Shown here: positions 25,835-34,601 of the stretch, one piece after another
Numbering within the stretch: position 1 is the first letter of the stretch
Layout of the letters: every line of letters begins with the position of its first letter
Assembly: GCA_027488935.1 (NCBI GenBank)
Contig: JAIYAP010000070.1
Span: forward strand, 1-45,676
Reading direction: 5' to 3'
DNA from: Saprospiraceae bacterium
Lineage (GTDB): Bacteria; Bacteroidota; Bacteroidia; Chitinophagales; Saprospiraceae
Length of the DNA stretch: 45,676 bases
Made by a program: the position numbers and the translations under genes
The notes under the pieces: generated by a model
Seen by the model: the letters and a program-made list of their open reading frames with translations, nothing else
Databases searched by the model: none
Told to the model about the DNA's origin: nothing

Positions 25835-27952
25835 CTATATTTTCACAAGTTTTATAACCACCGTTCGATCTTTCATTTTCATCAATCCAAAATATACGCC
25901 TGCGGGTGTTTCACTCCCCGAAAGCGCCTGCCCGTCCCATTCAATTTTTTGTTCCGTTACGCCGGCAGATAAATTGAAAATATACACCAACCGTCCTTTT
26001 AGGTCGTAAATCTCGAACGTAGGATGTTCATTCGAGGCAAACAAAGCCTTAATTTGAATGGTGGTCCGGGTTTCAAAAGGATTCGGGTATACATTAACCA
26101 AAGAATCCGAGGTACTTAAATCATCGGTACTTGTAAGTTGGGTTTCGTCGGTGCAATTATCGCAATAATAGGAAGAGTCTTCCAGGCATAAAAATGCAGT
26201 GTATCTGGAGAGCACCCGATTATTCAGGCTGTTAAAAAGTATATTATTAACGGTTGGGGTAGATTGCTGTTCGGCCTCAAGGGTTTGAATAAATTTCCCG
26301 TACCAAATTTCACGACTAAGTGTATCGATGGTCTCAATTTCACTTTGGGGGACTTCAACATTCGATAAAACTAATTGATCATCCAAAACACCACCTACTG
26401 CCAAATTAAACGGTGCTGTACCCAAGTATTTACCTACTTGTAAAACGGGTCGGTCCAGGTTAACCAACGTCCCATTATTCGAAACGTTTAAGCGAGCATA
26501 ACAAAAACCATCTTTAGGCGAAAGGTTTATGTCAAAAGTGCTCGTATTAGTCCCCATGTTATAAAATAAGGACTCTAGCCCTGGTGCGAAATTGGGGGAT
26601 TGGATGGTACTAAATGCTGCTTTCACATAAGCGCCTTTTGTTTGTGCGGCAAGCGTACTGAGCAAGTAACTATTTGCATAATAATAAGTATTATTCAAAT
26701 AAAAATAATTATTAATATCACAATAATTAAGAGAATTTATGCTAATAGTTGGAGGTGTAATACTTAACACATCGTTTAAAAAATTATTTGAGGCTGATAA
26801 ATTTGCAAATTGATTACCATTTGAAGCCAGTACGATAGCACCTTCATTGCCATGCGCCTTCACCCATTCTATACTAAAGGGCAATAAGGTAGTCAGGTTA
26901 CTGTATGGCGCCAATTGACCCGCTATTAAATTGAATGCACTACGAATCGTATCCGGGTGAGCGGGCAGCCATCGATCTGCGGCTTTACGAATTGACAAAC
27001 CAGAAATAAACAAATTAAATGAATCTCCAGTGATAAAGTTATTCAACATCGTATTTTTTGCCGCAACCAAAATTTGCGATGTACTTAAGCCACTAGTATT
27101 GCCCGGTTCAAAATCCAAACATAAGGCCACCTTCCTCCTTCTACTTCCAGGTAAAAAGTAATTGGGCATAACAGCAAGTTGATAAAACTGCTCACCCTCG
27201 GATGCTCCGGCAGCCAAATAATAGCCATTGCGAAGGGGGGATGCAAACGCCAATTTTACGTCATTGGTAAATTGGTTGGAGTTTAATACTGTCCTGTAAA
27301 AATGGCCTCCATCAATCGTATCTTCCACTTCTTCAAAATAAGTATTCGGCTGATTGAGCAAAGAGGGCACCTTGAAACGATCGTTTGTCCAAACAAGTAA
27401 ATTAAACTTACTTAGAGGAGTTGAGGAGTATTTCAACAAATCAAAAGGCAAGTCCAGCGTTGTATTTTCCCGACCGAGGGTTGCCGGTTGTAACCAGGTT
27501 ATTTTCACCCGCCGGGTATTGGTACGCGCCATCGGAAATACCCGTAACTGATATTGTGTTGTGCTATTTTTAAACAGGACAGAAGGGTCAATACGACGCT
27601 TTACGATGCCCTCATAAATCGCTGAGGCCGTCCACCGATCAAATATTCGCGCCTTACTAATTTCATCACCAACCCAAAGCCAGGAATCGTGTACCGTTGA
27701 GCCTTCCGGCAAATTGAACCTAAGCAGCACCTCCAGCGAATCTCCATTGGTATTGAAAGTAACACCTTTCGCAGAAAAGGTTAAGTAAAGCCCACATTCC
27801 ATGTAAAGCCCTTTAGGACGAACCGACAACGTGGCAGACTCAATAGTCCCCTGGCGTGTTGCCCAAGTTTGGCGGACATCAGCGACTGTCAATTGAGCAA
27901 AACTGGTACCATGCATGCACAGCAACAGACAAAAAAGTAGCAATAATCTCAT
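25835..27952 (-). CDS. Secreted VIT-domain protein with type IX sorting domain
   Basis: After a signal peptide (MRLLLLFCLLLCMHGTSFA) the 705-residue protein has a VIT (inter-alpha-trypsin/vault) domain at about 35-155. It is recognised from LRFNLPEGSTVHDSWLWVGDE, RWTASAIYEGIVKRRIDPSVLF and YQLRVFPMARTNTRRVKITW. A von Willebrand A-like fold follows from about 273, but the MIDAS DxSxS is replaced by DFEPG (280-284), so metal-dependent adhesion is doubtful. The end is a Por secretion domain (VYPNPFETRTTIQIK ... GVYFGLMKMKDRTVVIKLVKI). It should be exported by type IX secretion and held at the surface. I chose the ATG at 27952, which starts the signal peptide; the frame is open to 28027. Confidence 0.88.
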   Translation of the reverse strand: MRLLLLFCLLLCMHGTSFAQLTVADVRQTWATRQGTIESATLSVRPKGLYMECGLYLTFSAKGVTFNTNGDSLEVLLRFNLPEGSTVHDSWLWVGDEISKARIFDRWTASAIYEGIVKRRIDPSVLFKNSTTQYQLRVFPMARTNTRRVKITWLQPATLGRENTTLDLPFDLLKYSSTPLSKFNLLVWTNDRFKVPSLLNQPNTYFEEVEDTIDGGHFYRTVLNSNQFTNDVKLAFASPLRNGYYLAAGASEGEQFYQLAVMPNYFLPGSRRRKVALCLDFEPGNTSGLSTSQILVAAKNTMLNNFITGDSFNLFISGLSIRKAADRWLPAHPDTIRSAFNLIAGQLAPYSNLTTLLPFSIEWVKAHGNEGAIVLASNGNQFANLSASNNFLNDVLSITPPTISINSLNYCDINNYFYLNNTYYYANSYLLSTLAAQTKGAYVKAAFSTIQSPNFAPGLESLFYNMGTNTSTFDINLSPKDGFCYARLNVSNNGTLVNLDRPVLQVGKYLGTAPFNLAVGGVLDDQLVLSNVEVPQSEIETIDTLSREIWYGKFIQTLEAEQQSTPTVNNILFNSLNNRVLSRYTAFLCLEDSSYYCDNCTDETQLTSTDDLSTSDSLVNVYPNPFETRTTIQIKALFASNEHPTFEIYDLKGRLVYIFNLSAGVTEQKIEWDGQALSGSETPAGVYFGLMKMKDRTVVIKLVKI

Positions 27953-28164
27953 TGGTTTCAAGTATTTTATTTTGTGAAGGATGTGAATTTGATTTATTAA
28001 ATAACAGGGACTGCTTTTTATATTCAAACGAAGTCACGTTAAAATAGGCTGTCTACATAGTATGGGTACTTTTGTACAATTTGAGCAATTCACTACTTGG
28101 GGAAACACTTTGATAGGACTTTTATTTTATAGTAATACTGCTAATATCAACACGACATGAGCAA

Positions 28165-28197
28165 TTAAAAATCTATTTAATAAAGGCTTTATTAAAT
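28165..28197 (-). terminator. Terminator of the carbamoyltransferase cassette
   Basis: ATTTAATAAAG (28175-28185) and CTTTATTAAAT (28187-28197) form a nearly perfect palindrome that begins in the SxtJ-like stop codon. On the minus strand it is followed by AGATTTTTAATT. The shape fits a rho-independent terminator, though the stem is AT-rich. Confidence 0.6.
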
Positions 28198-28565
28198 CAC
28201 CATAAATTTTCCAAATCCGCTTTTGTATAAGCATGGTCACGTTCGGCATAGTAAGTTTCACCCGCAGGCTTGCGTTTTAACTCCACCGAAGAGCCGCCAA
28301 AAAGGCGAGATAACCATGCCAAAGGGGTCAATATGGCAAAAAACAGGATTGAAAGCAACACCCGGCTATTAAACCAGCCCAATGCCTGGGCTAAAAGCAT
28401 CCAGCCTTGATGCAAGAGGTTAGCGGCCCAAGGCCACAATACACCAATTGCAGAAACAAGCATCGCTCCACGTAAAAACCAACTGTTATGCAGCCAAAAA
28501 TAAAGAGCCAACAACCCTGCTGTAATCACCAGGGCTGTTTCTATGGATTGTGCGCGTTTGTTCAT
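28197..28565 (-). CDS. SxtJ-family membrane protein
   Basis: The 122-residue product has three hydrophobic helices (about residues 8-25, 31-50, 66-86) and a polar C-terminal tail (SSVELKRKPAGETYYAERDHAYTKADLENLW). This shape and the position next to an O-carbamoyltransferase identify it as an SxtJ-like protein, named from the saxitoxin cluster, whose function is unknown. I chose the ATG at 28565: it lies one base after the stop of the 49-residue gene, so translation is probably coupled. It is the last gene of the cassette. Confidence 0.85.
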   Translation of the reverse strand: MNKRAQSIETALVITAGLLALYFWLHNSWFLRGAMLVSAIGVLWPWAANLLHQGWMLLAQALGWFNSRVLLSILFFAILTPLAWLSRLFGGSSVELKRKPAGETYYAERDHAYTKADLENLW

Positions 28566-28566
28566 C

Positions 28567-28716
28567 TTAAAACAAGGTATAAATAAACGGTGCAATGGCA
28601 CTGCCGCCGCCGATTACGAGTAATACGCCTAAAAGCAATAAAACAAGCACCACAGGCGCCAGCCACCACTTTTTACGCGCTTTCATAAATTGAAAAAGTT
28701 CTTTCAAAAATTCCAT
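28567..28716 (-). CDS. 49-residue single-helix membrane protein (DUF5989/SxtK-like)
   Basis: A short gene reads MEFLKELFQFMKARKKWWLA, then a hydrophobic helix (PVVLVLLLLGVLLVIGGGSA) and the tail IAPFIYTLF. The amphipathic basic start, double Trp and single helix with a GGGSA end match the DUF5989 family of very small proteins found beside carbamoyltransferase genes; the product is about the size of SxtK. It starts 19 bases after the carbamoyltransferase stop and ends one base before the SxtJ-like start. Its role is unknown; a scaffold or activator of the membrane complex is an inference only. Confidence 0.85.
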   Translation of the reverse strand: MEFLKELFQFMKARKKWWLAPVVLVLLLLGVLLVIGGGSAIAPFIYTLF

Positions 28717-28735
28717 GACACTTGCATTTTGCAGG

Positions 28736-30601
28736 TTAATCTAAAACAAATTCTTCCTTCCAGCCGTCCTTTTCCAGCCATTCCGGTTGTTGTGTTTTAT
28801 CGAACAAGGTATTTCCTACCACCAAAAAATCCATTTCTGTACGCATAAAACAGCGATAGGCATCTTCCGCGGTACACACAATCGGTTCACCGCGCACATT
28901 GAAACTCGTATTTACAATCACCGCAATATCTGTAATTTTTCGAAATGCCTCAATCAACGACCAATACCTTGGATTGGTTTCTTGATGAACCGTTTGTATC
29001 CGTGCTGAAAAATCGATATGCGTAATAGATGGTAAGTCTGACCGTAGCTGATACAATTTATCACGTACTGACAACTGATTATAATCGTTCGGCAATGGCT
29101 TTCGATGGCTATTATTTACCGGATGTACCAGCAACATATAAGGCGAAATACCTTGATAATCAAAATATTCCGCAACCCGTTCACTTTGTACAGAAGGTGC
29201 AAAGGGCCGAAAAGATTCTCGGTATTTAATCTTTACATTGAGTTTTTTCTGCATTTCAGGATTTCTCGGATCTCCCAAAATGCTGCGATTACCCAACGCA
29301 CGGGGACCAAATTCCATACGTCCTTGTACCCAACCAACTACATTGCCTTCTGCAAGTAATTGCGCAGTTTTATCCGCCAAATCTTCAAAATGCTCAAAAT
29401 GCTGGCCAATTGCCCGGTATTTTCGCGTGACGAGTTGCACATCGCGCTCGCTACAGGCTGGCCCCAGGTAACTACCCTGCATTCCATCCAATCCCGTTGG
29501 CGTAATCCTTTCCTCACCAAAATACAAATATTGAGCCGCCAAAGCTGCACCCAATGAGCCACCTGCGTCGCCCGCTGCTGGCTGGATAAATACATTTTGG
29601 AAAATTCCAGAAACCTGGAGTTTGCCATTTGACACACAATTGAGCGCAACACCGCCTGCTAAACATAGATTTTCTGAACCCGTAAGGCGCTTGGCCTCTT
29701 TTGCCATCAAAAGCACGACCCGCTCGGTAACCTGCTGAATTGCTAATCCCAAATTACAATGATGTGCTTCTAAAGGATCTTCAGGCTGGCGTTTTTTAAA
29801 GCCAAACAAACGCTCCCAATCAGCATCATTTACCATTCGAAGCCCGGTAGCATAATCAAAATAACGCTGATTAAGCCAGATAGAGCCATCTTCATGGATA
29901 TCAACCAATTCATTTTCAATTACTTGTATATATCGTTCAATATCTGGCGACTCCGGATTGCCATAAGGCGCCAAACCCATTAGTTTGTACTCGCCAGAAT
30001 TGACCCGAAAGCCCAAAAAGTAGGTAAACGCTGAGTATAACAGGCCTAAGGAATGCGGAAAGCGCAATTCCCGCAAAATTTTAATGTTTTTACCTTCACC
30101 GTAACAAATACTAGCCGTTGCCCATTCCCCCACACCATCAATGGTCAAAATTGCAGATGACGCAAAAGGAGCAGGGTAAAACGCACTCGCTGCATGGGAT
30201 AAATGATGTTCCGGAAATAGCAACTTCAACTTTGCCTTATTGAAATCTCCAATTTTGGCCAGTTCCTGGCGTAAAGCCCGCTTTAAAAACATTTTTTCTT
30301 TCAACCAAACCGGCATACCAGTCAAAAAAGAACGCAAACCACGTGGTGCAAATGCATAATAGGTTTCTAACAAGCGCTCAAATTTAAGCAACGGCTTGTC
30401 ATAAAATACCACCGCATCTAATTGCTGAATGCTTAATCCCGCTTCTTCGAGGCAATATTTTACGGCATTCGAGGGAAATCCCGGATCATGTTTTTTTCGG
30501 GTAAAACGCTCTTCCTGGGCCGCAGCAACCAACACGCCATCGCGCAAAATTGCAGCCGCTGAATCATGATAATAGGCAGAGATGCCAAGTATATTGGGCA
30601 T
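28736..30601 (-). CDS. O-carbamoyltransferase (NodU/CmcH/SxtI-like)
   Basis: The 621-residue enzyme transfers a carbamoyl group from carbamoyl phosphate, through a carbamoyl-adenylate, to a hydroxyl group of an acceptor. The N-terminal Kae1-like domain has ILGISAYYHDSAAAIL, the metal-binding histidines in PEHHLSHAASAFYPAPF (His132, His136) and LCLAGGVALNCVSNGKL. The C-terminal YrdC-like domain holds GRMEFGPRALGNRSILGDPR near residue 430. Length and both domains are complete. Its ATG overlaps the stop of the SGNH hydrolase gene (TAATG). With the SxtJ- and SxtK-like genes it forms a conserved cassette; the acceptor, probably a surface glycan or secreted metabolite, is not identifiable. Confidence 0.95.
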   Translation of the reverse strand: MPNILGISAYYHDSAAAILRDGVLVAAAQEERFTRKKHDPGFPSNAVKYCLEEAGLSIQQLDAVVFYDKPLLKFERLLETYYAFAPRGLRSFLTGMPVWLKEKMFLKRALRQELAKIGDFNKAKLKLLFPEHHLSHAASAFYPAPFASSAILTIDGVGEWATASICYGEGKNIKILRELRFPHSLGLLYSAFTYFLGFRVNSGEYKLMGLAPYGNPESPDIERYIQVIENELVDIHEDGSIWLNQRYFDYATGLRMVNDADWERLFGFKKRQPEDPLEAHHCNLGLAIQQVTERVVLLMAKEAKRLTGSENLCLAGGVALNCVSNGKLQVSGIFQNVFIQPAAGDAGGSLGAALAAQYLYFGEERITPTGLDGMQGSYLGPACSERDVQLVTRKYRAIGQHFEHFEDLADKTAQLLAEGNVVGWVQGRMEFGPRALGNRSILGDPRNPEMQKKLNVKIKYRESFRPFAPSVQSERVAEYFDYQGISPYMLLVHPVNNSHRKPLPNDYNQLSVRDKLYQLRSDLPSITHIDFSARIQTVHQETNPRYWSLIEAFRKITDIAVIVNTSFNVRGEPIVCTAEDAYRCFMRTEMDFLVVGNTLFDKTQQPEWLEKDGWKEEFVLD

Positions 30602-31671
30602 TATTGGTTTGTTCTTAAATAATTAATCAAAAACTGGGCGACCATTGCATTGCCCTGATTATTCCAGTGGTAGCCATCATCGGAGCGCACACATTGACCT
30701 TTGTTTTCTGCATCCGACACCTTATTTGCCAAACCATCGACAAAAGGGATGTTATTTTCGCTACAAAGACGCTTGAACTGGTCATATTGTGGTTGGTATC
30801 CATCCGCATCAAAAGCAATCAATTTGGTGGAGGCCGGTAAAACAGATTTCACCTTTTTAATTACCGCATCCGTCATTTTTACGCTTTTGGCAAATAAGGG
30901 ATAGGCAAGTCCTTGTTCTCCGATGAATTTTTCCGCAGGCTCTTTAGGCGCTTGGTCGAAAGTCCCCCCGCTTTCTGCAATGCGCCTCAGAACAAAATAC
31001 AAAAAGTAGGAATAGGGTTTGACACTGCGTGGGTATTCAGCCGCCCACCGATAAACAATGCGCCCATCTTCTTGGGTGTATGGACGCTTCATGCGAACAT
31101 GATAAACCGCCGCTTTTTCCAGTTCCCAATAATTATCGAGAAAATCATTGCAGCAAAACTGCCAAACCACGATATCCGGTTTTACCTCATTTACATATTT
31201 TTCAAGAAACATCGCTTGCTGGGTACTGCCAAATCCGGCAGCGCCAAATGCAAAAACTTCGAATGGAAGAGAATCGCCGATGATTTTATAAAACAAATGA
31301 TCATCGCCCGTTTGAACGGCTGCTGTATAGGAATCTCCTAAAAACAGCACCTTCTTTTTGTCTGTAACCGCAGGATTGCCCCAACGCCGAAACCCATTTT
31401 TACCAAAAGAAATGTTTAGGGCATAGGAAGTGTCGCATTTGTCGCGCATCGTGCCTTGATATTGATACCCCTCCTGCACATGCCAACCATAAGTATTATC
31501 CGGCACACGATAATTATGGGGTGCTGGTGCCGAAGGATCGGCTACCCATTGTGGGTTTAAGCGAAAAATGATTTCGACAACACCGCAAACCACAAATAGC
31601 CCAATGAACATCGTGATGATGCTAAACAGGATCTGCTTGCCATTACTTAACTTATGCTGAGTTGCTGCCAT
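30601..31671 (-). CDS. Membrane-anchored SGNH/GDSL hydrolase
   Basis: The 356-residue product has one N-terminal transmembrane helix (about 15-38, ILFSIITMFIGLFVVCGVVE) and an extracytoplasmic SGNH domain. Block I is VLFLGDSYTAAV with the catalytic Ser114; the block III-like Asn is in WQFCCNDFLDNY; block V is DDGYHWNNQGN with the Asp/His pair. Such domains act as esterases or acyltransferases on glycans and lipids. I chose the ATG at 31671, which gives a normal topology (short basic N-tail inside), and a TACTTTTG box lies 20 bases before it. It is the first gene of the cassette and overlaps the carbamoyltransferase start by one base. In the sxt cluster a GDSL lipase (sxtL) occupies the equivalent place. 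Confidence 0.88.
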   Translation of the reverse strand: MAATQHKLSNGKQILFSIITMFIGLFVVCGVVEIIFRLNPQWVADPSAPAPHNYRVPDNTYGWHVQEGYQYQGTMRDKCDTSYALNISFGKNGFRRWGNPAVTDKKKVLFLGDSYTAAVQTGDDHLFYKIIGDSLPFEVFAFGAAGFGSTQQAMFLEKYVNEVKPDIVVWQFCCNDFLDNYWELEKAAVYHVRMKRPYTQEDGRIVYRWAAEYPRSVKPYSYFLYFVLRRIAESGGTFDQAPKEPAEKFIGEQGLAYPLFAKSVKMTDAVIKKVKSVLPASTKLIAFDADGYQPQYDQFKRLCSENNIPFVDGLANKVSDAENKGQCVRSDDGYHWNNQGNAMVAQFLINYLRTNQ

Positions 31672-31998: not shown

Positions 31999-34356
31999 CT
32001 ATCGCACCCGCATCACTTTCTGCGTAACAACACCGCCCGCCGTTTCTAATTGCAACAACAATAAGCCGTTCGCCGAAAGTCCGGACAGATCCAGCACCTG
32101 GTTGTGCATGCCCTGCGCCGATTCCGCGGGCGTTTGCAATACCACCTGACCGGTTGCATCCGTTAAACGCAGGGTCGCCGCACCTGCTTCTGGCAGGTAA
32201 TACACGGCCGTCAATACATCTTGCACCGGATTAGGCGTTGCAGGCATCAATACAGCCGCCGGTTTGCCAGCTGGTTTGGACAAAAATTCGAGCCCAATTT
32301 CGGTGCTTTCCAATTTGCCCGTGAAGGCTGCTTGTTCGGTCACCGACCCATTCATAAACAACACATCGCGCAGCAAACAATTTTCTTGCGCCTTGATAAT
32401 CAGGGTAAAAGCAACTACTTTTTGATTGTTATTGGCACCGATCAAAGCCGAGGGCAACACGCATGCCGCCGTTATAGCACCTGCATCCGCAAACTTACTC
32501 AGGTAAGATGCTGGTACCAAACCAGGTTCTACCCCTACCAATTGCACCTTGCTCTGGTCGTAACCCAAGGTAAACTGGAAAGCTGCCAAATCCTCCAATA
32601 CCGGCGTAGTAATGTCTACCCGCATCTCAACACCTGCCGCCAAACGCATGGAAGACGCGGTAAAATAACGGGTTGGAACTTCTGGTTTGCGCGATTCTGA
32701 CCCAACGATGTCTGCTGCTTTAAAAGAGCCGTCCAAATCGCCGGTTTTAACACCTACAAAATCGCGCTGGGCGTTTCCGTTCAACATGCTGATCGTTTCA
32801 GGAAAGGCGGTTGCCAAAGGTTGTGCCGGGTTGGCAAAAACATGGCTCACCGGCACAAAACGCCAGGCTGTATTATTGCTAAACGATTTTGTCTGCCCCG
32901 TAATCACCTTCATCATTTCATTGATGTCGTCTTGGTTCAGTTTGGCATCGCGGTTCACATCGGCTGCGATGATCTGGTAAGGACTGCCCAGCGGCTGAAC
33001 CAAACTCTGGTGCGCAGAAGACAACAACACGTCCAGCGTATTCACACCCTCGGATGCCAGGGTATCCAACTGCGGAACCAGGCTGTAATTGCCGGAACTG
33101 GCCGGCGCGTTTGCTACCTGGTAAATCCCGTCGGCATTGGTGCTGGCTTTCCAGGCGCCCGGGTATTGGGGCAGCATGTTGCTGACCATTTTCAACTGTA
33201 CCGAAGGCACCGCTTTTTGCTGGATGTTCATGATCTGGCCACTCACATTTTGCGGCGGACAAGAACCCGAGTTGTCCTGCACCACCACGTAAGTTTCGCA
33301 GTAATCGGCATTGCCATAAGCATCTTGCGACCAGATTTGCACCTTTTGCGGACCTAATTCGGTGCAATCAAAGGTTACACTGTGCTGATCGAAGGGGAAG
33401 CCTGTACCAGCGCCTGTTTTGCGAATGGCAATTTTTAGCTGGTTCTTCGGCGTGCAATTATCAAAGGTGTATTGCAAAAAGTCGGTATCCCACAGGGTGA
33501 TCATACCGGTTTGCATAATATTGATACTCAAGCCATTGATACAAACCACCGTTGGCGCTTTGCAATCTTTTACAATAAATTCGTATTTACAAATGGCATC
33601 CGCTGCGCAATTGTCGCTGGCGATCCATTCAATTTTGTGTTTTCCGTAAGGCAAACCAACACCGGTTGGGAATTTCACCTTGGCACTCACGGTATCGCCG
33701 GTCACCGTTGTTTCAATCGGCCAGGCATTGGCGGCGCTGCTGCTGAGGTACGTTTCCATGCTACCGTTGCCATCGAGGTCCAGGTACAGGCGGTACGACA
33801 ATTTAATATCCGCTTTAGAGCAGGCATCGGTTACTTTTACTTTCAAATCCACCGGACCTTCACAGCGGTCGTTGTAATTGCTGTTGTATTGGGCAGGATC
33901 GTTGTTGGTTAAGTCGCAAAAAACAACCGGCTCCGTCGGGCAATTCAGGAAAACCGGCGGCACATTGTCCACCACCTTAATGATTTGGGTGTAGGTGATG
34001 TAACCGTGGTTGCTGTAATTGCCAATAACGGTTGGACCAATATCCGAGTTCAAAGGATTCAGAATGGCAAAGGGCGCCGTCCAGTTGGGGTTGTAATCAC
34101 ACCAGTACACCAGGGTCCACTTACGCAATACCTTGAAGCAGGTTTTAGCGTTGTTGGTGTAAAAAATCTGGTCTTTTTGTGAAACGCCCACATTGAAATT
34201 GCAGCCGTATTGGGTAATTTGTGGGTAAACCACGTCGGGTATCACGCCGCAACCGTAAATGGTTACATCGTCCGGAAATTTGACGGTGTAGTAATTTTGG
34301 GCAGACAAACCGGAATTAAGCAGGAGCGCAAAGGCGCAGAGTAGGAATAAACGCAT
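31999..34356 (-). CDS. Secreted protein with HYR-like, dockerin-like and cohesin-like segments and type IX sorting domain
   Basis: The 785-residue product starts with a signal peptide (MRLFLLCAFALLLNSGLSAQ). Cys-rich beta domains with HYR-like turns follow (VVDNVPPVFLNCPTEPVVFCD, VKDCKAPTVVCI), then a carboxypeptidase-regulatory-like segment (VSGQIMNIQQKAVPSVQLKM). The dockerin-like part (about 466-551) has ADVNRDAKLNQDDINEMM as a calcium-loop repeat, then RFVPVSHVF and FVGVKTGDLDGS. A cohesin-like beta domain (about 575-695) includes DLAAFQFTLGYDQSKVQLVGVEPGLV. The last 80 residues (ATPNPVQDVLTAVYYLP ... VVTQKVMRVR) are a type IX sorting domain. It is probably a surface or matrix protein; no catalytic site is visible. 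I chose the ATG at 34356 for the signal peptide. Confidence 0.85.
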   Translation of the reverse strand: MRLFLLCAFALLLNSGLSAQNYYTVKFPDDVTIYGCGVIPDVVYPQITQYGCNFNVGVSQKDQIFYTNNAKTCFKVLRKWTLVYWCDYNPNWTAPFAILNPLNSDIGPTVIGNYSNHGYITYTQIIKVVDNVPPVFLNCPTEPVVFCDLTNNDPAQYNSNYNDRCEGPVDLKVKVTDACSKADIKLSYRLYLDLDGNGSMETYLSSSAANAWPIETTVTGDTVSAKVKFPTGVGLPYGKHKIEWIASDNCAADAICKYEFIVKDCKAPTVVCINGLSINIMQTGMITLWDTDFLQYTFDNCTPKNQLKIAIRKTGAGTGFPFDQHSVTFDCTELGPQKVQIWSQDAYGNADYCETYVVVQDNSGSCPPQNVSGQIMNIQQKAVPSVQLKMVSNMLPQYPGAWKASTNADGIYQVANAPASSGNYSLVPQLDTLASEGVNTLDVLLSSAHQSLVQPLGSPYQIIAADVNRDAKLNQDDINEMMKVITGQTKSFSNNTAWRFVPVSHVFANPAQPLATAFPETISMLNGNAQRDFVGVKTGDLDGSFKAADIVGSESRKPEVPTRYFTASSMRLAAGVEMRVDITTPVLEDLAAFQFTLGYDQSKVQLVGVEPGLVPASYLSKFADAGAITAACVLPSALIGANNNQKVVAFTLIIKAQENCLLRDVLFMNGSVTEQAAFTGKLESTEIGLEFLSKPAGKPAAVLMPATPNPVQDVLTAVYYLPEAGAATLRLTDATGQVVLQTPAESAQGMHNQVLDLSGLSANGLLLLQLETAGGVVTQKVMRVR

Positions 34357-34601
34357 AAGGTTTTTGATTTTAAGCGTAAAAATACACCGCAAAGCCCCCT
34401 GCCTGCGTTGTTAAAAATGACGCATTGGCGACGAATGAACGCATAAGCACGCATTTTGAACTACGCCAAATTGCTTGATTAAATATGCGCATTTATAAAC
34501 AACTGATAGTCAAAACGCATTCAAAATCAACACTTTACCCAGGCATTTGTTATAGTATGAAAATACTATCCGCAATTGAACCCAGACTAAATGAAATTAA
34601 A

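Follow-up and report, generated by a model that had tools for sequence, protein, structure and literature searches.

A widespread carbamoyltransferase, DUF5989 and SxtJ gene trio and its possible role in a transmembrane carbamoyl relay

A putative four-gene carbamoylation cassette in a Saprospiraceae contig

We analysed contig JAIYAP010000070.1 of a Saprospiraceae bacterium (assembly GCA_027488935.1; the window hereafter, i.e., the whole stretch of 45,676 nucleotides), which carries four adjacent minus-strand genes for a putative carbamoylation system. In order of transcription, these encode an SGNH/GDSL enzyme (30601-31671, start ATG at 31671, 356 amino acids), a class III O-carbamoyltransferase (CT) with Kae1-like and YrdC-like parts that belongs to the trio-type clade described below (28736-30601, 621 amino acids), a DUF5989 microprotein of SxtK-like size with one helix and the C-terminal sequence APFIYTLF (28567-28716, 49 amino acids), and a membrane protein of the SxtJ family (28197-28565, 122 amino acids). 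The SGNH and CT genes overlap at TAATG, a 19-nucleotide gap separates CT from the downstream DUF5989 gene, and the DUF5989/SxtJ junction reads TAA-G-ATG, all as described in the first-pass annotation of this DNA. The hairpin said to end the cassette is present as a perfect 11-bp inverted repeat touching the SxtJ stop codon (28175-28185/28187-28197, no strand), but it is A+T-rich and was not flagged by a terminator scan that needs three G-C pairs; that is, it is real as sequence and weak as a possible terminator.

The CT matched Pfam PF02543 (1.4e-93) and PF16861 (3.2e-73), and the SGNH enzyme matched PF00657 (6e-9) and PF13472 (8.1e-9). The two small proteins belong to the families named in the first-pass annotation: DUF5989 matched PF19451 (2.2e-26; 92.1 bits vs. 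a curated cut-off of 27) and SxtJ matched PF19588 over residues 18-90 (2.3e-8; 35.1 bits vs. 24.4), with hydropathy giving one helix for the former and three segments for the latter, as well as one N-terminal segment for SGNH and zero for CT. The CT has the Carbam_trans N and C domains, the HxxxH motif, two Asp iron ligands and the His base of class III carbamoyltransferases; the iron ligands H132, H136, D155 and D345 and the general base H12, equivalent to those of GdmN (PMC9633730), are conserved in 116/116 trio-type CTs. The SGNH enzyme shows the superfamily fold and the catalytic Ser and His of its conserved blocks (Ser114 and His335, invariant among 39 aligned sequences), and its structure model (predicted local distance difference test, 87.9) places an N-terminal membrane anchor helix at residues 10-38, with the catalytic domain probably periplasmic. 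The SxtJ model has helices at residues 3-25, 28-43 and 45-88 and an aromatic C-terminal residue; an F, W or Y ends 119 of 121 SxtJ proteins and 7.9% of other open reading frames (ORFs) of at least 95 amino acids. DUF5989, CT and SxtJ have one match apiece in the window's genome (E-value 1e-3), and the PADLOC models for anti-phage defence assigned the four cassette proteins to zero families.

The four families are alike in kind and size to sxtI-J-K-L of the cyanobacterial saxitoxin clusters (1839, 405, 165 and 1281 bp; PMC2679770), for which it was proposed that sxtI, with sxtJ and sxtK, carbamoylates and sxtL decarbamoylates (PMC2679770, PMC2885083, PMC12300590; gene list in PMC2684587), and a suomilide cluster holds sxtJ, K, L-like genes (PMC10157211). 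The cassette described here differs in its order (SGNH-CT-DUF5989-SxtJ), in its shorter SGNH enzyme (356 vs. about 426 amino acids), in the substrate that we propose, i.e., the envelope and not a toxin, and in its surroundings, with no other sxt gene among the five flanking genes scanned.

A near-constant trio within the phylum and across phyla

Among 296 same-phylum genomes searched for the three families, DUF5989 exceeded its family cut-off in 104 (106 at an E-value of 1e-3), SxtJ had a match in 93 genomes, 90 of them above its cut-off, and CT was found in 128. All 93 SxtJ genomes also carried DUF5989 and CT, and 103 of the 104 DUF5989 genomes carried CT, the single miss (G047) being a match near a contig end with an internal stop (hypergeometric probabilities, 4e-65 and 4e-54; relatedness is ignored in these counts and statistics). 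Eleven DUF5989 genomes had no Pfam match to SxtJ, and a custom profile recovered SxtJ in all seven regions fetched. Within 7 kb and on the same strand, 68/105 DUF5989 matches lay near CT, 58/105 near SxtJ, and 36/105 near neither; since the co-occurrence holds nonetheless, the trio appears to be kept together in genomes even when its genes are scattered. Apart from the window's genome, a CT was found in 15 of 40 nearer relatives (typed by identity, with at least 50% taken as trio-type and at most 43% as other type). DUF5989 exceeded its cut-off in seven of the nine with the trio type, one of whose CTs is a fragment (G324), and in zero of the six that had the other type alone; of the two trio-type genomes without DUF5989, one (G299) is cut by its contig.

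Scanning genomes with an alignment of DUF5989 gave 544 confirmed stretches, the best 80 of which make up the named loci discussed below, with phylum-level groups assigned by record titles. In 72 of these 80, which span ten named phylum-level groups, CT, DUF5989 and SxtJ lay contiguously on the same strand, in the orders SxtJ-DUF5989-CT (15 loci), CT-DUF5989-SxtJ (13), CT-SxtJ-DUF5989 (9) and others. The contiguous trio was joined by an SGNH gene in 31/80 named loci; among 60 same-phylum loci, the trio was contiguous in 40 and joined by SGNH in 8. Of the genes within the trio or adjoining it, 32/133 were SGNH genes in the named loci vs. 7/326 at ranks 4-7, and 13/82 vs. 7/161 in the same-phylum loci (counts that omit loci without CT in the block). 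The SGNH gene is thus enriched beside the trio yet often missing, which makes it a real but optional partner. Therefore, the idea of a quartet acting as a module holds for CT, DUF5989 and SxtJ, which are a near-constant unit, while SGNH is frequent and optional. Likewise, the families are not rarely adjacent, their small members match the SxtJ and DUF5989 profiles, and the cassette is, as had been suggested, independent of the saxitoxin cluster and far wider than it; judging from the breadth of its distribution, it is likely older as well.

The description of the cassette as free-standing applies to the window and to pSymB of Sinorhizobium meliloti, but not to Ensifer canadensis (annotated) or to two other loci (L242 and L241, neighbours judged by eye), where it lies among glycan genes. 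The scanned genes beside the window and S. meliloti cassettes are not natural-product genes, which argues against transferring the saxitoxin proposal as it stands, i.e., that CT and two helpers carbamoylate a small metabolite while SGNH is a decarbamoylase setting the ratio of both forms. This explanation has the saxitoxin precedent behind it; it also leaves the motif described in the next section unexplained, and we regard it as very improbable.

Several individual loci deserve description. On pSymB of S. meliloti (L180/L259), SxtJ-DUF5989-CT and a divergent SGNH gene have a histidine kinase and a response regulator in their vicinity; strains 1021 and ABS7 share this arrangement. An Oscillatoriales contig (L151), which ends just upstream of CT, has the sxtI-J-K-L order, CT-SxtJ-DUF5989-SGNH-SGNH-SGNH, with glycosyltransferase-like genes further downstream on the other strand and no toxin gene recognised (both judged by eye). 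Trio genes also occur in Pelagibacteraceae (SAR11) records (L133, L143, L147, L149, L161, L168, L174, L175), where L147 and L168 have SGNH genes of the opposite strand setting SxtJ apart, and L161 has its CT in two pieces. Finally, a record titled Rickettsia typhi (L164) is a metagenome bin with cassette genes whose label is probably wrong.

The DUF5989 C-terminus and the CT acceptor pocket

The C-terminal FIYTLF of DUF5989 (28570-28587, minus strand), overlooked in the first-pass annotation, is an FxYxxF motif. P21, A42, P43, F44, Y46 and F49, the residue at which the protein terminates, are invariant (100% of 111 sequences), and the ending F[IV]YxxF was found in 143/143 complete DUF5989 proteins, of which 61 (the window's and 60 others) came from the Pfam profile, two from tblastn and 80 from a scan both of whose patterns included the motif, so that these 80 are partly motif-selected; in a later check of an overlapping set, 36 of 37 had it. 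By comparison, only 3 of 14,894 other ORFs of the same loci, and 2 of 1,831 ORFs in 20 loci with free CTs, end in this way, and all five are MBOAT proteins. The same ending was present in 28/30 MBOAT loci taken from DUF5989 genomes. FXYXXF is the motif that shuttles acyl groups in MBOAT-SGNH and Dlt systems: its Tyr, located in the tail of PatA or in the membrane microprotein DltX, takes the acyl group and hands it over to an SGNH enzyme (PMC12148441, where PatB was also assayed with an acetyl-peptide); in DltX the motif reads FLYFGF (PMC11035591). DUF5989 resembles such a shuttle in its single helix, small size, N-in charge bias and tail, and we consider this motif the key new finding; it suggests a specific role for a 49-residue protein. 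DUF5989 was not mentioned in the open-licence literature searched (subscription papers fell outside its scope), PMC12148441 was the only one of the open-licence papers listed to contain FXYXXF, and the covered parts of the saxitoxin, suomilide and shuttle literature do not mention a shuttle motif in SxtK or DUF5989.

The CTs that accompany these proteins are distinct as well. Trio-type CTs, defined by profile score, had DUF5989 or SxtJ within 2.5 kb in 115/118 cases and formed a separate clade (support 0.996) in a tree of 116 trio-type vs. 23 other tips, the latter being 20 CTs chosen for their distance from DUF5989 and SxtJ and three from DUF5989 loci, L125 among them. A 20-residue insertion identified in the alignment (residues 500-519 in the window, 29045-29104, minus strand) had nearly all columns filled in 97% of the 116 trio-type CTs and in 0/23 of the others, and a C-terminal LD occurred in 87/118 vs. 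0/20; this LD tail and the aromatic tail of SxtJ may be docking signals. The cassette CT shares near-full-length homology, iron ligands and general base with NodU, TobZ, GdmN and NovN, but it differs from them in its clade, insertion, mostly LD tail, membrane partners and near-invariant acceptor pocket. To map this pocket, the GdmN elements were transferred to residues 9-15, 71-84, 155-161 and 185-203 of the cassette CT, 47 positions in all, which cover helices 1 and 2, loops 2 and 3 and part of loop 1 but omit what the partner monomer contributes. Pocket entropy in 23 diverse trio-type CTs was 0.49 vs. 1.20 over all compared columns, while in the 23 other CTs it was 1.61 vs. 1.55 (circular-shift p 0.0014). 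Such hyper-conservation across phyla would be expected of one constant acceptor, and an acceptor of this kind is easier to reconcile with the invariant tail of DUF5989 than with glycans, which vary.

A possible carbamoyl relay across the membrane

Class III CTs form carbamoyl-AMP from carbamoyl phosphate and ATP. Under the hypothesis that we favor, the CT would carry out this reaction in the cytoplasm and would then load the carbamoyl group not on a glycan but on the invariant Tyr46 of the DUF5989 FIYxxF ending, making DUF5989 the carrier. SxtJ, in what is the weakest step, would provide a membrane dock for CT and a crossing path for the motif or the group, and the anchored SGNH enzyme would take the carbamoyl to its own serine before transferring it to a hydroxyl group on a glycan, either of the envelope or secreted; at loci with no adjacent SGNH gene, another SGNH enzyme would serve. 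A precedent for a CT loading the C-terminal residue of a partner protein is provided by HypF, which puts carbamoyl onto the C-terminal Cys of HypE (PMC9633730). The two systems would be alike in a carbamoyl-AMP enzyme loading a partner's C-terminal residue, and differ in that HypF/HypE involves a Cys thiol and hydrogenase maturation rather than a membrane Tyr. Like Dlt and the PatAB-type MBOAT-SGNH systems, where the group is carried by the Tyr of an FxYxxF end on a microprotein or a protein tail, the cassette has an FxYxxF terminus and an anchored SGNH partner, and it shares with Dlt also an ATP-driven cytoplasmic activation; it differs in having SxtJ in place of MBOAT and a carbamoyltransferase in place of DltA/DltC. 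We give about an even chance that the cassette is a transmembrane carbamoylation machine akin to these acylation systems. The fuller proposal, that DUF5989 is a carbamoyl-tyrosine carrier loaded by CT as HypE is by HypF and discharged by SGNH onto extracytoplasmic glycans, and that toxin producers borrowed this step, is a tentative one that we place slightly short of even.

The known shuttle systems have an MBOAT loader; the cassette has none, and three MBOATs lie elsewhere in the window's genome. Alternatively, DUF5989 might serve acyl shuttling in general, as an accessory that MBOAT or AT3 enzymes load for O-acylation, with the CT cassette sharing only SGNH enzymes and genomic islands. Indeed, DUF5989 adjoins an MBOAT and two SGNH genes (one below the Pfam cut-off) in L162 and an AT3-SGNH enzyme in L065, and an MBOAT sits between CT and DUF5989 in L040 and L041. 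However, of the 80 of 104 DUF5989 genomes tested at an E-value of 1e-3, only 38 had an MBOAT, compared with CT as the constant companion in 103/104; MBOAT was undetected in the other 42, and in 17 of these (17/80) AT3 was undetected at the same threshold too. DUF5989 therefore appears to need another loader, and we find this alternative improbable.

A second possibility, the one pictured in the first-pass annotation, is a membrane-anchored glycan carbamoyltransferase, in which DUF5989 and SxtJ merely hold CT at the inner leaflet, a lipid-linked sugar is carbamoylated before flipping, and SGNH edits or removes the group outside. The direct-transferase catalytic residues are kept in CT, and WapO, a putative carbamoyltransferase, has been held responsible for the O-carbamoyl heptose of the Pseudomonas lipopolysaccharide core (PMC8005017). 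Further, in two genomes (G326 and G329), CT and SxtJ lie next to ABC-export-, glycosyltransferase-, sulfotransferase- and polymerase-like genes (judged by eye), with DUF5989 on a separate contig. We nonetheless consider this possibility rather unlikely, as it leaves unexplained both the obligatory FxYxxF end of DUF5989 and the near-invariant acceptor pocket across the sampled phyla.

It is important to note that several observations weigh against the carbamoyl relay. We infer, rather than observe, that carbamoyl is the cargo and DUF5989 the carrier; by its charge bias, the DUF5989 Tyr is probably on the periplasmic side, opposite a cytosolic CT; and the saxitoxin-cluster acceptor is a small molecule. 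The conserved pocket, whose mapping rests on GdmN, could also reflect a common small-molecule or lipid-linked acceptor. SxtJ is far smaller than MBOAT, and the family alignment holds no invariant catalytic-type residue. DUF5989 has no detectable homology to DltX: its locus was absent from the matches of the DltX profile (PF12459) in its own genome at E-values up to 10, and this profile matched 0/25 DUF5989 members. A profile comparison with MBOAT C-termini covered 16 columns at a probability of 26%. Given such weak similarity, the motif either arose by convergence or is too short to demonstrate common ancestry. There are exceptions to the trio as well, besides the incomplete contiguity of SGNH noted above. 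CT occurs without DUF5989 in 25/128 genomes, with CT type assigned only for the loci fetched; G332 (93% complete) lacks DUF5989, although SxtJ and a CT of the trio type are present; and the exception in the later motif check, from G328, ends in LIYPLF. No CT or SxtJ lies within the 20-kb locus L162; judging from L162 and L065, DUF5989 may serve more than one loader. In L125, DUF5989 follows by 14 nucleotides a CT of non-trio type, the sole CT beside it, and no SxtJ lies within the 20-kb locus; this is possibly a different CT-DUF5989 pairing.

If correct, the relay would add a third type to the acyl relays that span the membrane, the other two being MBOAT-SGNH and AT3-SGNH. It would occur in roughly one third of the phylum as sampled and also in SAR11, and saxitoxin producers would have borrowed their carbamoylation step from it. 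It would connect O-carbamoyltransferases with the way in which shuttles serve envelope acylation, offers a testable role for two uncharacterised families (DUF5989/SxtK-type and SxtJ) in about ten phyla, and leads to the prediction that many Bacteroidota, Proteobacteria and SAR11 carry carbamoyl groups on their surface glycans.

Two further features of the window concern the SGNH gene and the surroundings. Compared with a sister genome (G318, L239), an island of divergence (30150-31500) takes in SGNH and the beginning of the CT gene, with a nucleotide identity of 0.70-0.91 vs. 0.95-0.99 in the remaining trio, and the synonymous divergence (dS) of SGNH is 0.96 vs. 0.06-0.24 for five neighbouring genes, which suggests that the SGNH allele was separately exchanged. 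The five flanking genes scanned encode a methyltransferase, a 2-oxoglutarate-Fe(II) oxygenase, an MGS-like protein and two proteins with sorting domains for type IX secretion; the latter two flank the cassette at 25835-28027 and 31999-34392 (the second below the Pfam cut-off), and one of them carries a VIT domain.

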